A DNA stretch of 46,386 nt from an uncultured SAR86 cluster bacterium (lineage in GTDB: Bacteria; Pseudomonadota; Gammaproteobacteria; Magnimaribacterales; AG-339-G14), in assembly GCA_902561325.1 (NCBI GenBank), contig CACEOL010000008.1, forward strand, positions 1 to 46,386, written 5' to 3'. How positions within the stretch are numbered: the first letter of the stretch is position 1; each line of letters opens with the position of its first letter. Below the pieces are notes generated by a model that made no database searches, was not told the origin of the DNA, and saw nothing but the letters and a program-made list of their open reading frames with translations. A program made the translations under genes and the position numbers. This document shows positions 37,615-44,856 of the stretch, one piece after another.

Positions 37615-38503
37615 AGCAATTTCTCAATCTCAAAAGTTTCCAATATCTGGATACATTAAACTTACAAAACCATCCATAATTTATTTATTGGTTTTAACTG
37701 CAGCAACTGCAATGTTTATAGCAGATGGGTTTGCAGGAGATTTAACCAAAGTCATCTTCGGTCTTTTAGGCATAGCATTGATTGCTTCATCAAGTGCAGT
37801 CATCAACCAAATTCTTGACGTCGAAATTGATAGTAAAATGGCAAGAACCAAAAACAGACCTTTAGTAAAAGGAGAAATTTCAGCCACCAGCGCAAAAGTA
37901 TTTTCTGTCATATTGTTAGCTTCTGGAACGATACTCTTATTAATTTTTAATAATATTTTGACTGTTTCTCTTACTTTGCTAACTTGGGCTTTCTATTCTT
38001 TCTTTTACACAAAAATTCTTAAGTTTGCTGGTACGCAAAATATAGTTATTGGAGGTATTGCAGGCGCTATGCCTCCGCTTCTTGGGTGGACGGCTATTAC
38101 CAATTCTGTAGATGCCCTCCCTTTATTAATGGTCTTAATTATTTTTATTTGGACGCCACCTCACTTTTGGGCTTTATCTATTAATAGAAAAGAAGACTAC
38201 ATTGCGGCAAAGATTCCGATGATGCCAGTTATTAAAGGAACTGAGTACACAAAATTACAAATTGCACTTTACTCGGTTCTATTAGCAGTGATTTCAATAT
38301 TTCCTTTCGCAACTGGTTATCTAGGTGGATTTTATTTTATAAGTGCAATAGTCTTAAATGCGGCCTTCATTGGTCTCACAGTCGCTCTGATTTTTGATAA
38401 AAGTAACAGATTAGCTTTGCCTCTATTTCTTTACTCTATTGTTTTTTTAACAATATTGTTTATTTGTATGGCCCTTGATAAATTAATTCCAATTCAATTA
38501 TGA
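37604..38503 (+). CDS. ctaB: Protoheme IX farnesyltransferase (heme O synthase)
   Basis: 299 aa UbiA-type membrane prenyltransferase. The first Asp motif is NQILDVEID followed by ARTKNRPLVKG, and the second region is WTPPHFWALSINRKEDY. It farnesylates heme b to heme O, feeding CtaA. It starts at GTG, overlapping ctaA by 11 bases, and its stop overlaps sco1 by four. Confidence 0.95.
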   Translation: MNTEAISQSQKFPISGYIKLTKPSIIYLLVLTAATAMFIADGFAGDLTKVIFGLLGIALIASSSAVINQILDVEIDSKMARTKNRPLVKGEISATSAKVFSVILLASGTILLLIFNNILTVSLTLLTWAFYSFFYTKILKFAGTQNIVIGGIAGAMPPLLGWTAITNSVDALPLLMVLIIFIWTPPHFWALSINRKEDYIAAKIPMMPVIKGTEYTKLQIALYSVLLAVISIFPFATGYLGGFYFISAIVLNAAFIGLTVALIFDKSNRLALPLFLYSIVFLTILFICMALDKLIPIQL

Positions 38504-39138
38504 GTAACAATAAATCCATTAGAATAACGGTAGCATCATGCCTTCTTATCGTATCGATGGTTGCAGGTCTTTTCGTATATTCGACAATTTCACCCAAAGA
38601 ACTGACTGTAGACGAGTACAAACAAATTGGTTTTTACAAACTAGTCAGAACAAGGCAGCTAAATAATTTTGAGCTTATCGAAGGTGGCGAAAAATTTTCA
38701 AATAAAAATCTTCAAGGGTCCTGGGATGTTCTATTTTTAGGTTTTGCTTCATGCCCTGACATGTGCCCTATGACTATGAAAAAAATGGCAATGGCAAAAA
38801 GAAACTTATCTTCAGAGGCATCTTCAAAAGTAAATTTCAGAATGATTTCTGTTGACCCCGATCGCGATACGCCAGAAAAGATGCAGCAATATGTAGAAGC
38901 TTTCAATCCTAGCTTCACAGGAATAACCGGAAATATAGAAGTTATTTATAAATTGGCTACAGATTTGACTTTACCTTTTGTTCCAGTGATAGCCTCAGAT
39001 AATATTAACTATGATATGGATCACAGCATGAATCTTGCTGTTATTGATCCTAACGGTAATTATTTTGGCTTCTTTAAGTCGCCTCATACCCCAGAAAAAA
39101 TGGCTCAAGTTTTAGAAAGTATCGTATCTTTTAACTAG
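38500..39138 (+). CDS. SCO1/SenC family copper chaperone
   Basis: 212 aa. An N-terminal membrane helix (~9-29) tethers a thioredoxin-fold domain with the canonical copper site ASCPDMCP (C85, C89) and H175 in YDMDHSMN. It inserts or reduces copper at CuA of subunit II. It is the last gene of the cox cluster; no clear terminator follows before the next gene group. Confidence 0.94.
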   Translation: MSNNKSIRITVASCLLIVSMVAGLFVYSTISPKELTVDEYKQIGFYKLVRTRQLNNFELIEGGEKFSNKNLQGSWDVLFLGFASCPDMCPMTMKKMAMAKRNLSSEASSKVNFRMISVDPDRDTPEKMQQYVEAFNPSFTGITGNIEVIYKLATDLTLPFVPVIASDNINYDMDHSMNLAVIDPNGNYFGFFKSPHTPEKMAQVLESIVSFN

Positions 39139-39175
39139 ATCTAAAAAACAATTCCATAATCCTTTTTTTTTAAGT

Positions 39176-39201
39176 TATAGTATCGAACGAGAATCATTCT
39201 C
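39176..39201 (+). promoter_or_regulatory. Putative promoter -10 and Fur-like operator upstream of paralog array
   Basis: TATAGT at 39176-39181 could be a -10. It is followed by the perfect 13-bp palindrome GAGAATCATTCTC at 39189-39201, which matches the core of the Fur box (GATAATCATTATC) at 11 of 13 positions. In this position a bound repressor would cover the start of transcription. The -35 is weak. Iron control is a hypothesis. Confidence 0.45.
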
Positions 39202-39231
39202 ATGTTTTATTAACTTTTTTGGGAGAAAAAA

Positions 39232-39651
39232 ATGGAACAAGTATCATTAATAAATCAGAGTTTTATTGCGATTTTGCAATTAAATGGGCTGTATTTAATT
39301 GGTAATATCATTCTTTTGTGGATGATGTTTAGAGGCGTTACAAATGCAAACCTCCATGGAGCAAATACTTTTGGCAAAGCGCTTCATTCTGTCATTTCAC
39401 TTTGTGTAGTAGCTTTTATTTCTGGAACTTTTGCGTTTGCAGGTGCAACCGTTAACAACTGGGCTCTTGCTCTTTCAGAGAGTGGAGAAGAACTAAATGG
39501 AAGTTTACAAGCATTCGTAGATGGAATGGGGGCTACTGAGTACACAACAGCTGGCTTATTGCCATCTGATCCTCTCGGCATAGTATTTGTTTTAGCAATA
39601 CTAGTGGGCCTTATTGGAGGAATGTGGACGGCACCAGGTCCTAAGGAATAA
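39232..39651 (+). CDS. Unrecognised small membrane protein, tandem paralog 1
   Basis: 139 aa; I do not recognise the family. Three hydrophobic segments are visible: ~10-34 ending in LLWMMFRGVT, ~50-75 and ~113-133. Motifs shared with paralog 3 are WMMFR, NNWA, FVD.MGAT.Y, GL.PSDP..IVF and a WTAP.PKE C-terminus. There is no signal peptide, Cys pair, His cluster or catalytic motif. It has a GGGAG ribosome site, and a Fur-like palindrome lies 30 bp upstream. It lies 93 bp after sco1, followed by a strong hairpin. Function unknown. Confidence 0.85.
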   Translation: MEQVSLINQSFIAILQLNGLYLIGNIILLWMMFRGVTNANLHGANTFGKALHSVISLCVVAFISGTFAFAGATVNNWALALSESGEELNGSLQAFVDGMGATEYTTAGLLPSDPLGIVFVLAILVGLIGGMWTAPGPKE

Positions 39652-39660
39652 AAAAATATC

Positions 39661-39686
39661 AAGGGAGGCTAGAGCCTCCCTTTTTT
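39661..39686 (+). terminator. Hairpin terminator after paralog 1
   Basis: A 7-bp GC-rich stem GGGAGGC/GCCTCCC (39663-39680, loop TAGA), extendable by two A-T pairs, is followed by six T residues. Classical rho-independent form. As paralog 2 has no room for its own promoter, it may be partial or act as an mRNA-stabilising hairpin. Confidence 0.8.
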
Positions 39687-39716
39687 CATTTCATTAAATT
39701 TTATAAGGAGGAAAAA

Positions 39717-40133
39717 ATGGAAGAAAGACAAATCTGGGAACTTCTATCAAGCAATATGATAGGACTTTCAATATTTTTAGCTGGAAACGCTTTTCTAATA
39801 TGGGTTGCATTTAGAGTTTCTAAATCTGTAAATGAAACCGGTGGGAACATTGTATTCAAATTAGTTGGAACAGTTTTTGGTTTAGGCGTTGTTTATAATG
39901 GTCTTGTTTTGGGAGGCTTCATGAGCAATGCATTTCAAAGCACAGCATATTCTTTAGGACAACTTAAAGAAAGCGGCGGGGAATTATCTGCTTTAGCAGA
40001 GGGCTTTATTGCTTCTAACGGAGCTGACTTACCAGAATTCAGCATAATGCCAGGCGTCATTGGTGGAATTTGGTGGTTATCAGTTTTGGCAATTATTTTA
40101 TTGCCAATTTGGGGACCTAAAGCTTCTGACTAA
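39717..40133 (+). CDS. Unrecognised small membrane protein, tandem paralog 2 (divergent)
   Basis: 138 aa with the same layout as its neighbours: a hydrophobic segment ~14-33 ending FLIWVAFRVSK, a second at ~48-72, and a third at ~112-133 ending LPIWGPKASD. It keeps only traces of the shared motifs (AYSLGQL, a GxWW stretch and a final PK), so it is the most diverged copy. It has an AAGGAGG ribosome site, the strongest in the window. Function unknown. Confidence 0.83.
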   Translation: MEERQIWELLSSNMIGLSIFLAGNAFLIWVAFRVSKSVNETGGNIVFKLVGTVFGLGVVYNGLVLGGFMSNAFQSTAYSLGQLKESGGELSALAEGFIASNGADLPEFSIMPGVIGGIWWLSVLAIILLPIWGPKASD

Positions 40134-40157
40134 GAGATTTATTGATAGGCCTTATTT

Positions 40158-40190
40158 AGAGAGGAGGCTAAGCCTCCTCTCTTTCAATTT
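40158..40190 (+). terminator. Hairpin after paralog 2
   Basis: An 11-bp stem AGAGAGGAGGC/GCCTCCTCTCT with a 3-nt loop TAA (40158-40182), followed by a short interrupted T-run. The core GGAGGCTA...AGCCTCC is shared with the hairpin after paralog 1, so the hairpin seems to have been duplicated with the gene. Confidence 0.7.
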
Positions 40191-40209
40191 ATAAACTAGG
40201 AGAAAAAAA

Positions 40210-40623
40210 ATGGATGAATTTCAAATTAGCAATAACTTCTCAACGGGATTTATAGGGCGGACAGTATTCATGTTTGCCATGTTTTTTTTGTTGTGGATGA
40301 TGTTTAGAGCTAATACTTTAGCTCATGAAAGAGGGTCTAATCTTTTTCAAAAAATACTTGCAACAGCTATTTCTGGACCTGTTTTGATTTTTAATTTAAC
40401 AGCCTGGAATCTCTTTCCAGCATTCTTCAATAATTGGGCTTACAGTTTGTCTCAATTAGACTCTTTAAGCCCTGGCGGACAAAGGTTTGTAGACAATATG
40501 GGAGCTACAGGTTATATCAGCGGTGGTTTAATACCTTCCGATCCAGTAAGCATAGTTTTCTGGCTCGGGATAACTGTTGCTTTATTCTCAGGGATATGGA
40601 CAGCCCCTAAGCCTAAAGAGTAA
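40210..40623 (+). CDS. Unrecognised small membrane protein, tandem paralog 3
   Basis: 137 aa, clearly paralogous to the product at 39232: LLWMMFRANT, FFNNWAYSLSQL, RFVDNMGATGYISGGLIPSDP and a GIWTAPKPKE end. Three hydrophobic segments are at ~14-34, ~48-72 and ~111-130. It has an AGGAG ribosome site 8 bases before the ATG. No known catalytic or metal motif. Being membrane-bound and placed next to the oxidase cluster, a respiratory or iron-linked role is only a guess. Confidence 0.85.
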   Translation: MDEFQISNNFSTGFIGRTVFMFAMFFLLWMMFRANTLAHERGSNLFQKILATAISGPVLIFNLTAWNLFPAFFNNWAYSLSQLDSLSPGGQRFVDNMGATGYISGGLIPSDPVSIVFWLGITVALFSGIWTAPKPKE

Positions 40624-40636
40624 AAAACTCAAAAAA

Positions 40637-40663
40637 AAGGGGGGTTATTGCTCCCCTTTTTAT
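40637..40663. terminator. Hairpin terminator after paralog 3, possibly bidirectional
   Basis: An A-run and GGGG pair with CCCC and a T-run around a TTATTGCT-type loop. The A/T symmetry would let it end transcription from paralog 3 and also from the convergent oxidoreductase gene that stops at 40660. Confidence 0.75.
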
Positions 40664-41631
40664 ATTTCTATTACAACTTTTCCAGTAGCAGTTCTATCTT
40701 CTAAAGATTTTATTGCTTCCACCGCTTGGTCTAGAGAATAACTTTTGGTAATTTCAGGTTTCAACTTGCCTTCACTATGTAAAGCAAACAATTCTTCGAA
40801 GTTTTTTGCGTTCTCTTCAGGCTCTCTTCCAGTAAAGCTTCCCCAGAAAACACCTACTATTGAGCAACCTTTTAAAAGAGCTAGATTAGTTGGAACTTTA
40901 GGAATCCCTGCTGGAAAACCAATAACCAATACTCTACCTTTCCAATTTACACATCTCATACATTGCAAAAAGATATCGCCACCTACGGCATCATAGATTA
41001 CGTCCGCTCCCAAACCATCGGTTAATTCTTTTACTTTTTCCTTAAGCTCGCCATCGCCATAGTTCACTACTTCATCTGCCCCCAATCTTTTAGCGATATC
41101 CAATTTTTCTTGGTTACTTGCAGCAGCTATCACTCTCGCGCCCATCGCTTTACCAATTTCTATGGCAGTTGTACCAACTCCGCCTCCCGCACCGGTTACC
41201 AAGAGCGTCTCACCTTTCTTTAATTCTCCTCTTTGCTTTAAAGCATAATAAGTTGTTCCATAGTTAAGAGGAAAAGCAGCGCCATCTTTGAAATCCATCG
41301 ATTCAGGCAGGGGCATTAAGGTTGTTGCAAAAGCAGATGTCTTTTCTGCTATCCCCCCATTACCTACCATTGCAATCACTCGATCTCCCACTTTCCAATT
41401 ATCAACACCTTCACCTACTTCGGAAATTACTCCTGCAATTTCACCACCTGGAGAGAAGGGAAAGGGCGGTTGAAATTGATATTTTCCTTGCACGATTAAG
41501 ACATCCGGAAAACTCACTCCAGCAGCTTTGACATCAACTACAACCATTCCTGGTTCCGCTCTGGGGTCTTCTATTTCTTCTACCTTGTGTGAATCTACTG
41601 GACCAAATTCTCTACAGACGTATGCTTTCAT
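40660..41631 (-). CDS. Zinc-independent quinone oxidoreductase-like MDR protein
   Basis: 323 aa medium-chain dehydrogenase/reductase. A GroES-like N-terminal half shows AAGVSFPDVLIVQGKY and PGGEIAGVISEVGEGV. The nucleotide-binding GAGGGVGTTAIEIGKAMGA lies near 146-164. No catalytic or structural zinc Cys cluster is present, which points to the NADPH:quinone reductase branch. Substrate unknown. It ends in the hairpin shared with paralog 3 and is 45 bp from gshA. Confidence 0.85.
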   Translation of the reverse strand: MKAYVCREFGPVDSHKVEEIEDPRAEPGMVVVDVKAAGVSFPDVLIVQGKYQFQPPFPFSPGGEIAGVISEVGEGVDNWKVGDRVIAMVGNGGIAEKTSAFATTLMPLPESMDFKDGAAFPLNYGTTYYALKQRGELKKGETLLVTGAGGGVGTTAIEIGKAMGARVIAAASNQEKLDIAKRLGADEVVNYGDGELKEKVKELTDGLGADVIYDAVGGDIFLQCMRCVNWKGRVLVIGFPAGIPKVPTNLALLKGCSIVGVFWGSFTGREPEENAKNFEELFALHSEGKLKPEITKSYSLDQAVEAIKSLEDRTATGKVVIEI

Positions 41632-44798: not shown

Positions 44799-44840
44799 AT
44801 TATGCCAAACTTCTTTGTTACTTCTCAAGGAAGTTGAGAA
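44799..44840 (-). promoter_or_regulatory. Predicted pckA promoter with overlapping dyad
   Basis: On the minus strand TTGAGA (44828-44823) and CATAAT (44804-44799) are 18 bp apart. An inverted repeat TTCTCAA-N5-TTGAGAA spans 44822-44840 and covers the -35, a possible operator between pckA and the divergent hydrolase gene. Confidence 0.4.
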
Positions 44841-44856
44841 TTGTTCTTATTTTATA

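Follow-up and report, generated by a model that had tools for sequence, protein, structure and literature searches.

An array of small, exchangeable membrane-protein genes behind a predicted Fur-type operator in the SAR86 cluster

In the window, the whole 46,386-nucleotide stretch of DNA from an uncultured SAR86 cluster bacterium that was analyzed, three adjacent paralogous genes for small membrane proteins follow a Fur-type operator and differ in content from the arrays that close relatives carry at the same site. That Fur-type regulation and cassette turnover jointly characterize this array is, in our judgment, very probable from the comparison of sequences. The array would constitute a Fur-type operon with novel, exchangeable content, and the family of its proteins appears to be new.

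The three genes, all on the forward strand, encode proteins of 139 (copy 1; 39232-39651), 138 (copy 2; 39717-40133), and 137 amino acids (copy 3; 40210-40623), which open reading frames, alignment, and clustering assign to subfamilies A, E, and F, respectively. An earlier note, made from the sequence of the window alone, had given the same three genes and lengths and had regarded them as paralogs. Membership in one family is borne out by the alignment (protein identity of 43% between copies 1 and 3 and of 24% between copies 1 and 2, with 19 invariant columns across all three) and by the full-length relatives that a three-copy profile retrieves across the order. The motifs WMMFR, NNWA, FVD.MGAT, PSDP, and WTAP.PKE are indeed present in copies 1 and 3. 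The strong ribosome sites, said to set the three genes apart from most of the window, hold for copies 2 and 3, with AGGAGG runs of 6 and 5 bases, while the site of copy 1, with a run of 4, is only moderate; among the 42 other window ORFs of at least 100 amino acids, scored generously with up to six starts each, a run of at least 5 bases occurs in 5 and of at least 4 in 14.

Each protein shows three hydrophobic peaks, in keeping with the three-segment layout described earlier. AlphaFold2 models, built for copies 3 and 2 from input alignments of 22 sequences, agree with this layout (mean pLDDT 90.6 and 88.2, respectively). The modeled helices span residues 3-41 and 45-81 (45-85 in copy 2), followed by a short loop helix and a last helix near 112-132, so that the inner-membrane layout proposed in the earlier note stands in the form of predicted three-helix proteins. 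Because R33 and K48 lie between helices 1 and 2 and the loop between helices 2 and 3 is acidic, the placement of charges suggests that the array proteins reside in the inner membrane with the N-terminus outside and the C-terminus inside. ExbB has three membrane helices in an N-out, C-in topology. The array proteins thus resemble the ExbB/TolQ/MotA proton-channel family in helix number and in the orientation suggested by their charges, but they have no large cytoplasmic domain. Membership in this family (PF01618) was rejected by profile, given a weak match in one of 23 array-family members (best E 0.13).

No convincing relative of the array family was found in Pfam, NCBIfam, PADLOC, PHROGs, or the sequences of the PDB, which agrees with the statement of the earlier note that no family could be recognized. 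The best Pfam match was to DUF6541 (E 0.00046, in one of the 23 members), and Colicin_V gave weak matches in 4 of 23, the best with an E value of 0.001. The best values elsewhere were 0.006 in PHROGs (one of 23 members), 0.043 in NCBIfam (copy 1, in a scan of the three window copies), and 0.47 in the PDB. CvpA/Colicin_V (PF02674) membership was rejected, as no window copy exceeds the Pfam gathering cut-off: copy 2 reaches 17.7 bits where 29.3 are required, and copies 1 and 3 have no match. For the copy 3 model, Foldseek returned best E values of 1.4 in the PDB and 0.70 among viral models, and the best VIA-align match was a designed coiled-coil protein (Z 8.0, rmsd 4.3, 117 aligned); for this model such matches are no better than common helical bundles give, and they do not prove the fold to be new. 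Among the fold matches listed, neither ExbB nor immunity proteins appear. A mobile or phage origin was also considered; searches made with copies 1 and 2 against viral contigs, with copy 1 against phages, and with copy 3 against plasmids found no relative. At gathering score, no Rfam element lies in 38900-40900. The literature on SAR86 and iron or Fur, on small Fur-regulated membrane-protein arrays, and on SAR86 variable loci, with subscription journals largely outside its scope, gave no listed title or opening of an abstract in which the locus is described.

The window belongs to an assembly (G000) of 1.17 Mb that is 86.7% complete. Below, f1 denotes the family of the window, probably GTDB AG-339-G14, which passages of PMC11582366 name RedeBAC7D11; f2, f3, and f4 are other families and g1 to g4 are genera. 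A profile of 23 members matches 144 of 199 genomes of the SAR86 order, 35 of 40 among the good ones, and it finds at least one member in each of the 40 f1 genomes. Absence from close relatives, which the earlier note had named, together with lack of expression, as speaking against its reading, was not observed. In a class-wide sample, 5 of 370 genomes match, all five SAR86, and among the genomes searched the array family appears confined to the SAR86 order. Named relatives of copy 1 in genome contigs are assigned to the SAR86 cluster in seven of eight cases and to Gammaproteobacteria MED-G81 in the eighth.

The Fur-type operator, CGAGAATCATTCTCA, at 39188-39202 on the forward strand in the promoter region, differs by one mismatch from the 7-1-7 palindrome TGAGAATNATTCTCA. 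It is located between a -10-like hexamer just upstream, TATAGT (39176-39181, forward strand; read from the sequence), and array gene 1, and it was missed in the earlier note, as were the hairpins and the cassette variation described below. Signs of regulated expression were thus seen, in line with the expression signals of the earlier note. TATAGT or a near form precedes the operator in many of 29 aligned relatives, with no column reaching 80% consensus; a promoter scan gave 7 sites against 6.9 by chance and did not list TATAGT at 39176. In the window, CGAGAATCATTCTCA is the sole full match to the 13-base core. Sites with up to two mismatches are as common there as by chance (5 against 4.4), and the case for the operator therefore rests on the relatives. 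For these, the best match within 120 nt before the first array gene was scored at the main locus in 37 of the 40 f1 genomes (G030, G032, and G039 were left out, and four rows were dropped, three for copies at a second locus and one for a gene called twice in G033). Outside genus g3, the operator is present with at most two mismatches in 29 of 30 arrays, all but that of G007, which has none, and with at most one in 27. In g3, it precedes the array in none of seven cases, and the array is kept. The control regions before non-family genes of the same loci contain a site with at most two mismatches in 8 of 325 cases; four of these eight are accounted for by pckA and the hydrolase gene in two g3 loci, where the two genes have a common site of their own, one shares the array operator in locus L059, and the remaining three come from two f2 loci. 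None of the 56 internal array genes of f1 has a Fur-type site. Among first genes of the other families, a site occurs in 6 of 10 in f2 (four of seven genomes), in none of 15 in f3, and not in the single one of f4.

The same operator also precedes genes resembling those of iron uptake. The perfect 15-mer is found in 25 of 61 relatives' genomes and its backwards control in none of the 61. In 37 f1 genomes, the perfect 15-mer occurs at 12 places in 11 genomes; 11 of these are at the array, and the remaining one separates a TonB-receptor-like gene from an EfeU-like gene. At all 14 loci listed outside f1, which are not every site of those genomes, the gene that follows the site is TonB-receptor-like in 7 cases, EfeU/FTR1-like in 6, and that of an ABC binding protein in 1. 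These names were assigned mostly by eye, with three checked by profile and some proteins cut by the end of the locus; the tested TonB receptor and EfeU genes gave NCBIfam matches below the curated cut-offs, and FTR1 gave Pfam matches above the cut-off. In the window's own genome, sites with one or two mismatches occur at G000:C1:128921-129950 (L049), three of them upstream of a gene resembling that of a TonB siderophore receptor and one upstream of an EfeU-like gene, and L049 is the probable iron-uptake locus of this genome. With up to two mismatches, the genome holds 21 sites against 8 for the control, some of them in or at non-iron genes.

A Fur-family gene is present in 56 of the 61 relatives and in all 29 good genomes, and the one protein tested scores above the Fur equivalog cut-off. 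No Fur gene was found in the window's own, 86.7% complete assembly, which is probably an assembly gap. The array resembles the Fur-regulated iron-starvation operons for a TonB siderophore receptor and for EfeU/FTR1 in the same genome in that an operator of the 7-1-7 kind lies shortly before the first gene, but its products are unlike known iron-uptake proteins and its content differs between close relatives. Collectively, the sequence data argue strongly for predicted Fur binding, and hence Fur control, at the array. In two f2 loci, L062 (G100) and L065 (G052), two divergent family genes share one Fur-type operator; a quinone-oxidoreductase-like gene and a gene like the GST of L059 lie nearby.

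Within the array, a terminator scan places an intrinsic-terminator-like hairpin on the forward strand after gene 1 (39661-39682), gene 2 (40158-40182; 11 pairs), and gene 3 (40634-40661). In 38400-41000, terminator-like sites number 9, against 2.2 expected in shuffles. Because a hairpin follows each gene and no promoter is evident before the next, graded read-through along the array is suggested. The spacing in relatives varies. In 19 of 20 pairs that begin with a member of subfamily C or I, 8-25 nt separate this gene from its partner and a hairpin was undetected, and many other array neighbors are approximately 50-110 nt apart, often with a hairpin.

The other half of the main finding concerns the content of the array. 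Clustering of 115 distinct members (of 143 in the fetched loci) gave 20 groups, the largest 14 of which are lettered A to N. The window's composition is A-E-F, and the 15 genomes of its genus show 12 compositions (A-E-F, A-B-D, B-D-F, I-A, F-D, I-A-E-B, I-A-D, A, A-E, F-E, C-F-E, and E), a count in which incomplete assemblies may hide some copies. Single-copy arrays occur in G002 (70% complete) and G003 (89% complete). Since array content differs among members of one genus, the simple amplification suggested earlier does not account for the array, and a fixed three-part hetero-oligomer is unlikely.

Comparison with G009, the nearest relative compared, locates the change. Ahead of sco1, the left neighbor of the array, DNA identity is 89-95%; it is 80-82% within sco1 and 59-75% over the array, where copy 3 is absent, and it returns to 87-99% (90% in the boundary window) in the oxidoreductase-like gene on the right and beyond. 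Fourfold sites fall in the same manner, from 73-93% in the flanks to 51% in sco1 and to 41% and 62% in two array genes; replacement, and not only rapid protein change, is therefore suggested. In two of three relatives compared, sco1 is 78-82% identical, below the genes to its left. Against the more distant genus members G003, G004, and G010, the fourfold contrast is weaker. In G015, copy 1 is 86-91% identical, as conserved as the flanks (76-92%), and the sequence after its hairpin differs (45-56%). Copy 3 is 89% identical to its counterpart in G027, which belongs to another genus, compared with 46-75% for flanking genes, the oxidoreductase (94%) excepted. Over 45 fourfold sites, copy 3 reaches 62%, compared with 27-58% for the flanks, and transfer of copy 3 between genera is suggested.

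Variation is also unevenly distributed within the proteins. Across the alignment of 115 members, W130 never varies, and K48 is present in 113, W29 and R33 in 109 each, and N44 in 94; these five residues are at the predicted cytoplasmic ends. The periplasm-facing helix halves are more variable than the cytoplasm-facing ones, with mean entropies of 2.57 and 1.91 and none of 10000 permutations as large. The gap recurs in subfamily A (0 of 10000) and in subfamily C (p 0.0034) and is weak in B (p 0.089); all these p values are optimistic, as the halves were split by the analyst's choice and neighboring columns are not independent. No His or Cys, and no Asp/Glu within a membrane helix, is conserved across the 115 members. 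A metal transporter of the FTR1, FecCD, or FeoB kind was rejected on this ground, and because no metal ligand is conserved, direct iron transport by the array proteins is unlikely.

The array could also be an exclusion or immunity repertoire, a reading that we consider doubtful. Its premise is that iron starvation raises TonB receptors, which are doors for bacteriocins and phages; co-induced array proteins in the inner membrane would block pore formation or DNA entry, and each variant would act against one kind of attacker, hence the turnover. The differences in array content between close relatives at one and the same site, the conservation of copy 3 across genera relative to its flanks, and the more variable periplasm-facing half all fit. 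Immunity proteins of pore-forming colicins are small, have membrane helices, and are highly variable. Inner-membrane immunity proteins of microcins and colicins resemble the array proteins in these respects and are partly tied to iron: in passages of PMC9746304, microcin immunity proteins are given as 51-216 amino acids long, mostly located in the inner membrane, and with little or no sequence similarity, and in passages of PMC6071977, siderophore-microcin systems are tied to Fur. However, PMC6071977 also describes the microcin E492 immunity-toxin unit itself as lacking a direct Fur response. The array proteins differ in forming one conserved family with a fixed signature, and unlike an optional immunity gene they are carried, with at least one member, by all 40 f1 genomes. 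No sequence match to immunity proteins was found; inspection by eye of the neighbors of arrays in the fetched loci recognized no toxin-like gene. None of 23 members matches PADLOC (anti-phage defense) at E up to 0.1, and the viral contigs, phages, and plasmids searched with single copies hold no relative. The transfer of copy 3 is itself not clear-cut, considering its fourfold identity relative to that of the flanks.

The position of the array suggests two other readings. It starts 93 nt downstream of sco1 (38500-39138, forward strand; Pfam SCO1-SenC), as expected from the earlier description of an array directly after a cytochrome oxidase cluster, and it is followed by a zinc-type quinone-oxidoreductase-like gene (40660-41631, reverse strand; Pfam ADH_zinc_N and ADH_N). 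The sco1 and quinone-oxidoreductase-like flanks are kept in all 15 f1 main loci, the number fetched as larger stretches; four loci of genus g3 have extra genes between sco1 and the array. A small three-helix membrane protein directly after sco1 could be an ordinary subunit or assembly factor of the cytochrome c oxidase encoded before the array. We regard this as very improbable: no oxidase-subunit family appears among Pfam or NCBIfam matches of the window copies at E up to 10 or among Pfam matches of the 23 members at E up to 1, the array has its own operator and its own terminator-like hairpins, and both copy number and content vary. In addition, the window's oxidase-cluster genes are near family genes in none of the 25 loci fetched from f2, f3, f4, and second sites, which leaves the oxidase link of the array unsupported.

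Neighborhood also bears on the idea of a general membrane adaptation to iron starvation, in which the array proteins would be iron-sparing respiratory, lipid, or redox accessories. The array adjoins the oxidase cluster in f1, the quinone-oxidoreductase-like gene is near in the 15 f1 main loci and a homolog in 6 of 7 f2 loci fetched, and the proteins have no conserved ligand-binding residue, yet they keep a W/R/K/W cluster at the predicted cytoplasmic face. A core accessory, however, should not vary so much while its neighbors stay 87-99% identical, and the oxidase-cluster genes do not accompany the family outside the f1 main site. We therefore consider this reading unlikely. The quinone-oxidoreductase-like protein is 86-94% identical between g1, g2, and g4, compared with 44-75% for other flanking proteins. 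At fourfold sites its gene, at 36-44% between genera, is as diverged as the other flanking genes, and for this reason its conservation looks like strong constraint. A recent transfer of the right flank was rejected, since the oxidoreductase and its G027 counterpart share 94% identity as proteins and 44% at fourfold sites, like other flanks.

Many SAR86 genomes were found without FecCD and about half without FTR1, which provides a context for the inner-membrane step of iron uptake: of the 61 genomes searched, 5 contain FecCD permeases and 31 contain FTR1. The FecCD match in G005 adjoins a binding protein, an ATPase, and a nitroreductase-like gene; these surroundings presumably resemble a vitamin-B12 cluster, so that it may not be a siderophore permease. 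FeoB_N domain matches exceed the cut-off in all 61 genomes. Those listed lie in frames of at most 480 amino acids, with E values no better than 1.6e-21, and judged by frame length, against what we take to be the size of FeoB, they are probably other GTPases. The rarity of FecCD had prompted the reading of the array proteins as an iron importer, which was lowered since no metal ligand is conserved. Among 7 array subfamilies in 28 genomes outside g3, none is associated with FTR1 presence (smallest p 0.116).

The explanation that we tentatively prefer, as the best of those weighed, is that the Fur-repressed array makes inner-membrane proteins that serve the use of siderophore-bound iron under iron starvation. 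In this scenario, the operon would be repressed by Fur, switched on by iron starvation, and would yield small three-helix inner-membrane proteins with the N-terminus outside and the C-terminus inside. The conserved cytoplasm-facing ends (W29, R33, N44, K48, and W130) would assemble the protein or bind a shared partner, while the variable periplasm-facing halves would deal with ligands that differ between strains. These ligands would most likely be siderophore-bound iron carried into the periplasm by Fur-controlled TonB receptors, and cassettes would differ with the ligands to which they are suited. That every one of the 40 f1 genomes carries at least one member favors a needed function, and the turnover of the array favors conflict or shifting ligands. 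Counted against the siderophore-iron explanation are the missing conserved metal ligand, the arrays of g3, G007, f3, and f4 that have no operator, the missing association with FTR1, and the neighbors of the arrays, among which no ATPase or binding protein was recognized by eye.

A bolder synthesis, which we rate as rather improbable, would see an iron-responsive swap locus of SAR86, in which a fixed Fur-controlled promoter drives recombined cassettes for a strain-specific inner-membrane gate or shield that is raised when starvation opens the TonB doors. Passages of PMC11069385 place SAR86 TonB receptors among the genes raised under low iron in the field and describe, for one low-iron experiment, responding genes that are mostly of unknown function. 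An iron-switched, lineage-specific, and strain-variable membrane family could be a sign of a novel inner-membrane step in the use of siderophore iron, or of an arms race at that step, and the array offers a concrete gene target for iron-stress transcriptomes and for a cultured isolate.

Two further sites were noted. A fourth, distant family member lies in the window's own genome at G000:C16:7209-7610 (L012), alone and adjoining a metallo-hydrolase-like gene; it has no Fur-type site, and the arrangement is the same in G009. Within the window, a Fur-type palindrome with two mismatches, TGAGAATTGTTCTTA, is located at 44835-44849, between pckA and a dienelactone-hydrolase-like gene, and the gap between these two genes holds a one-mismatch Fur-type site in three g3 loci.
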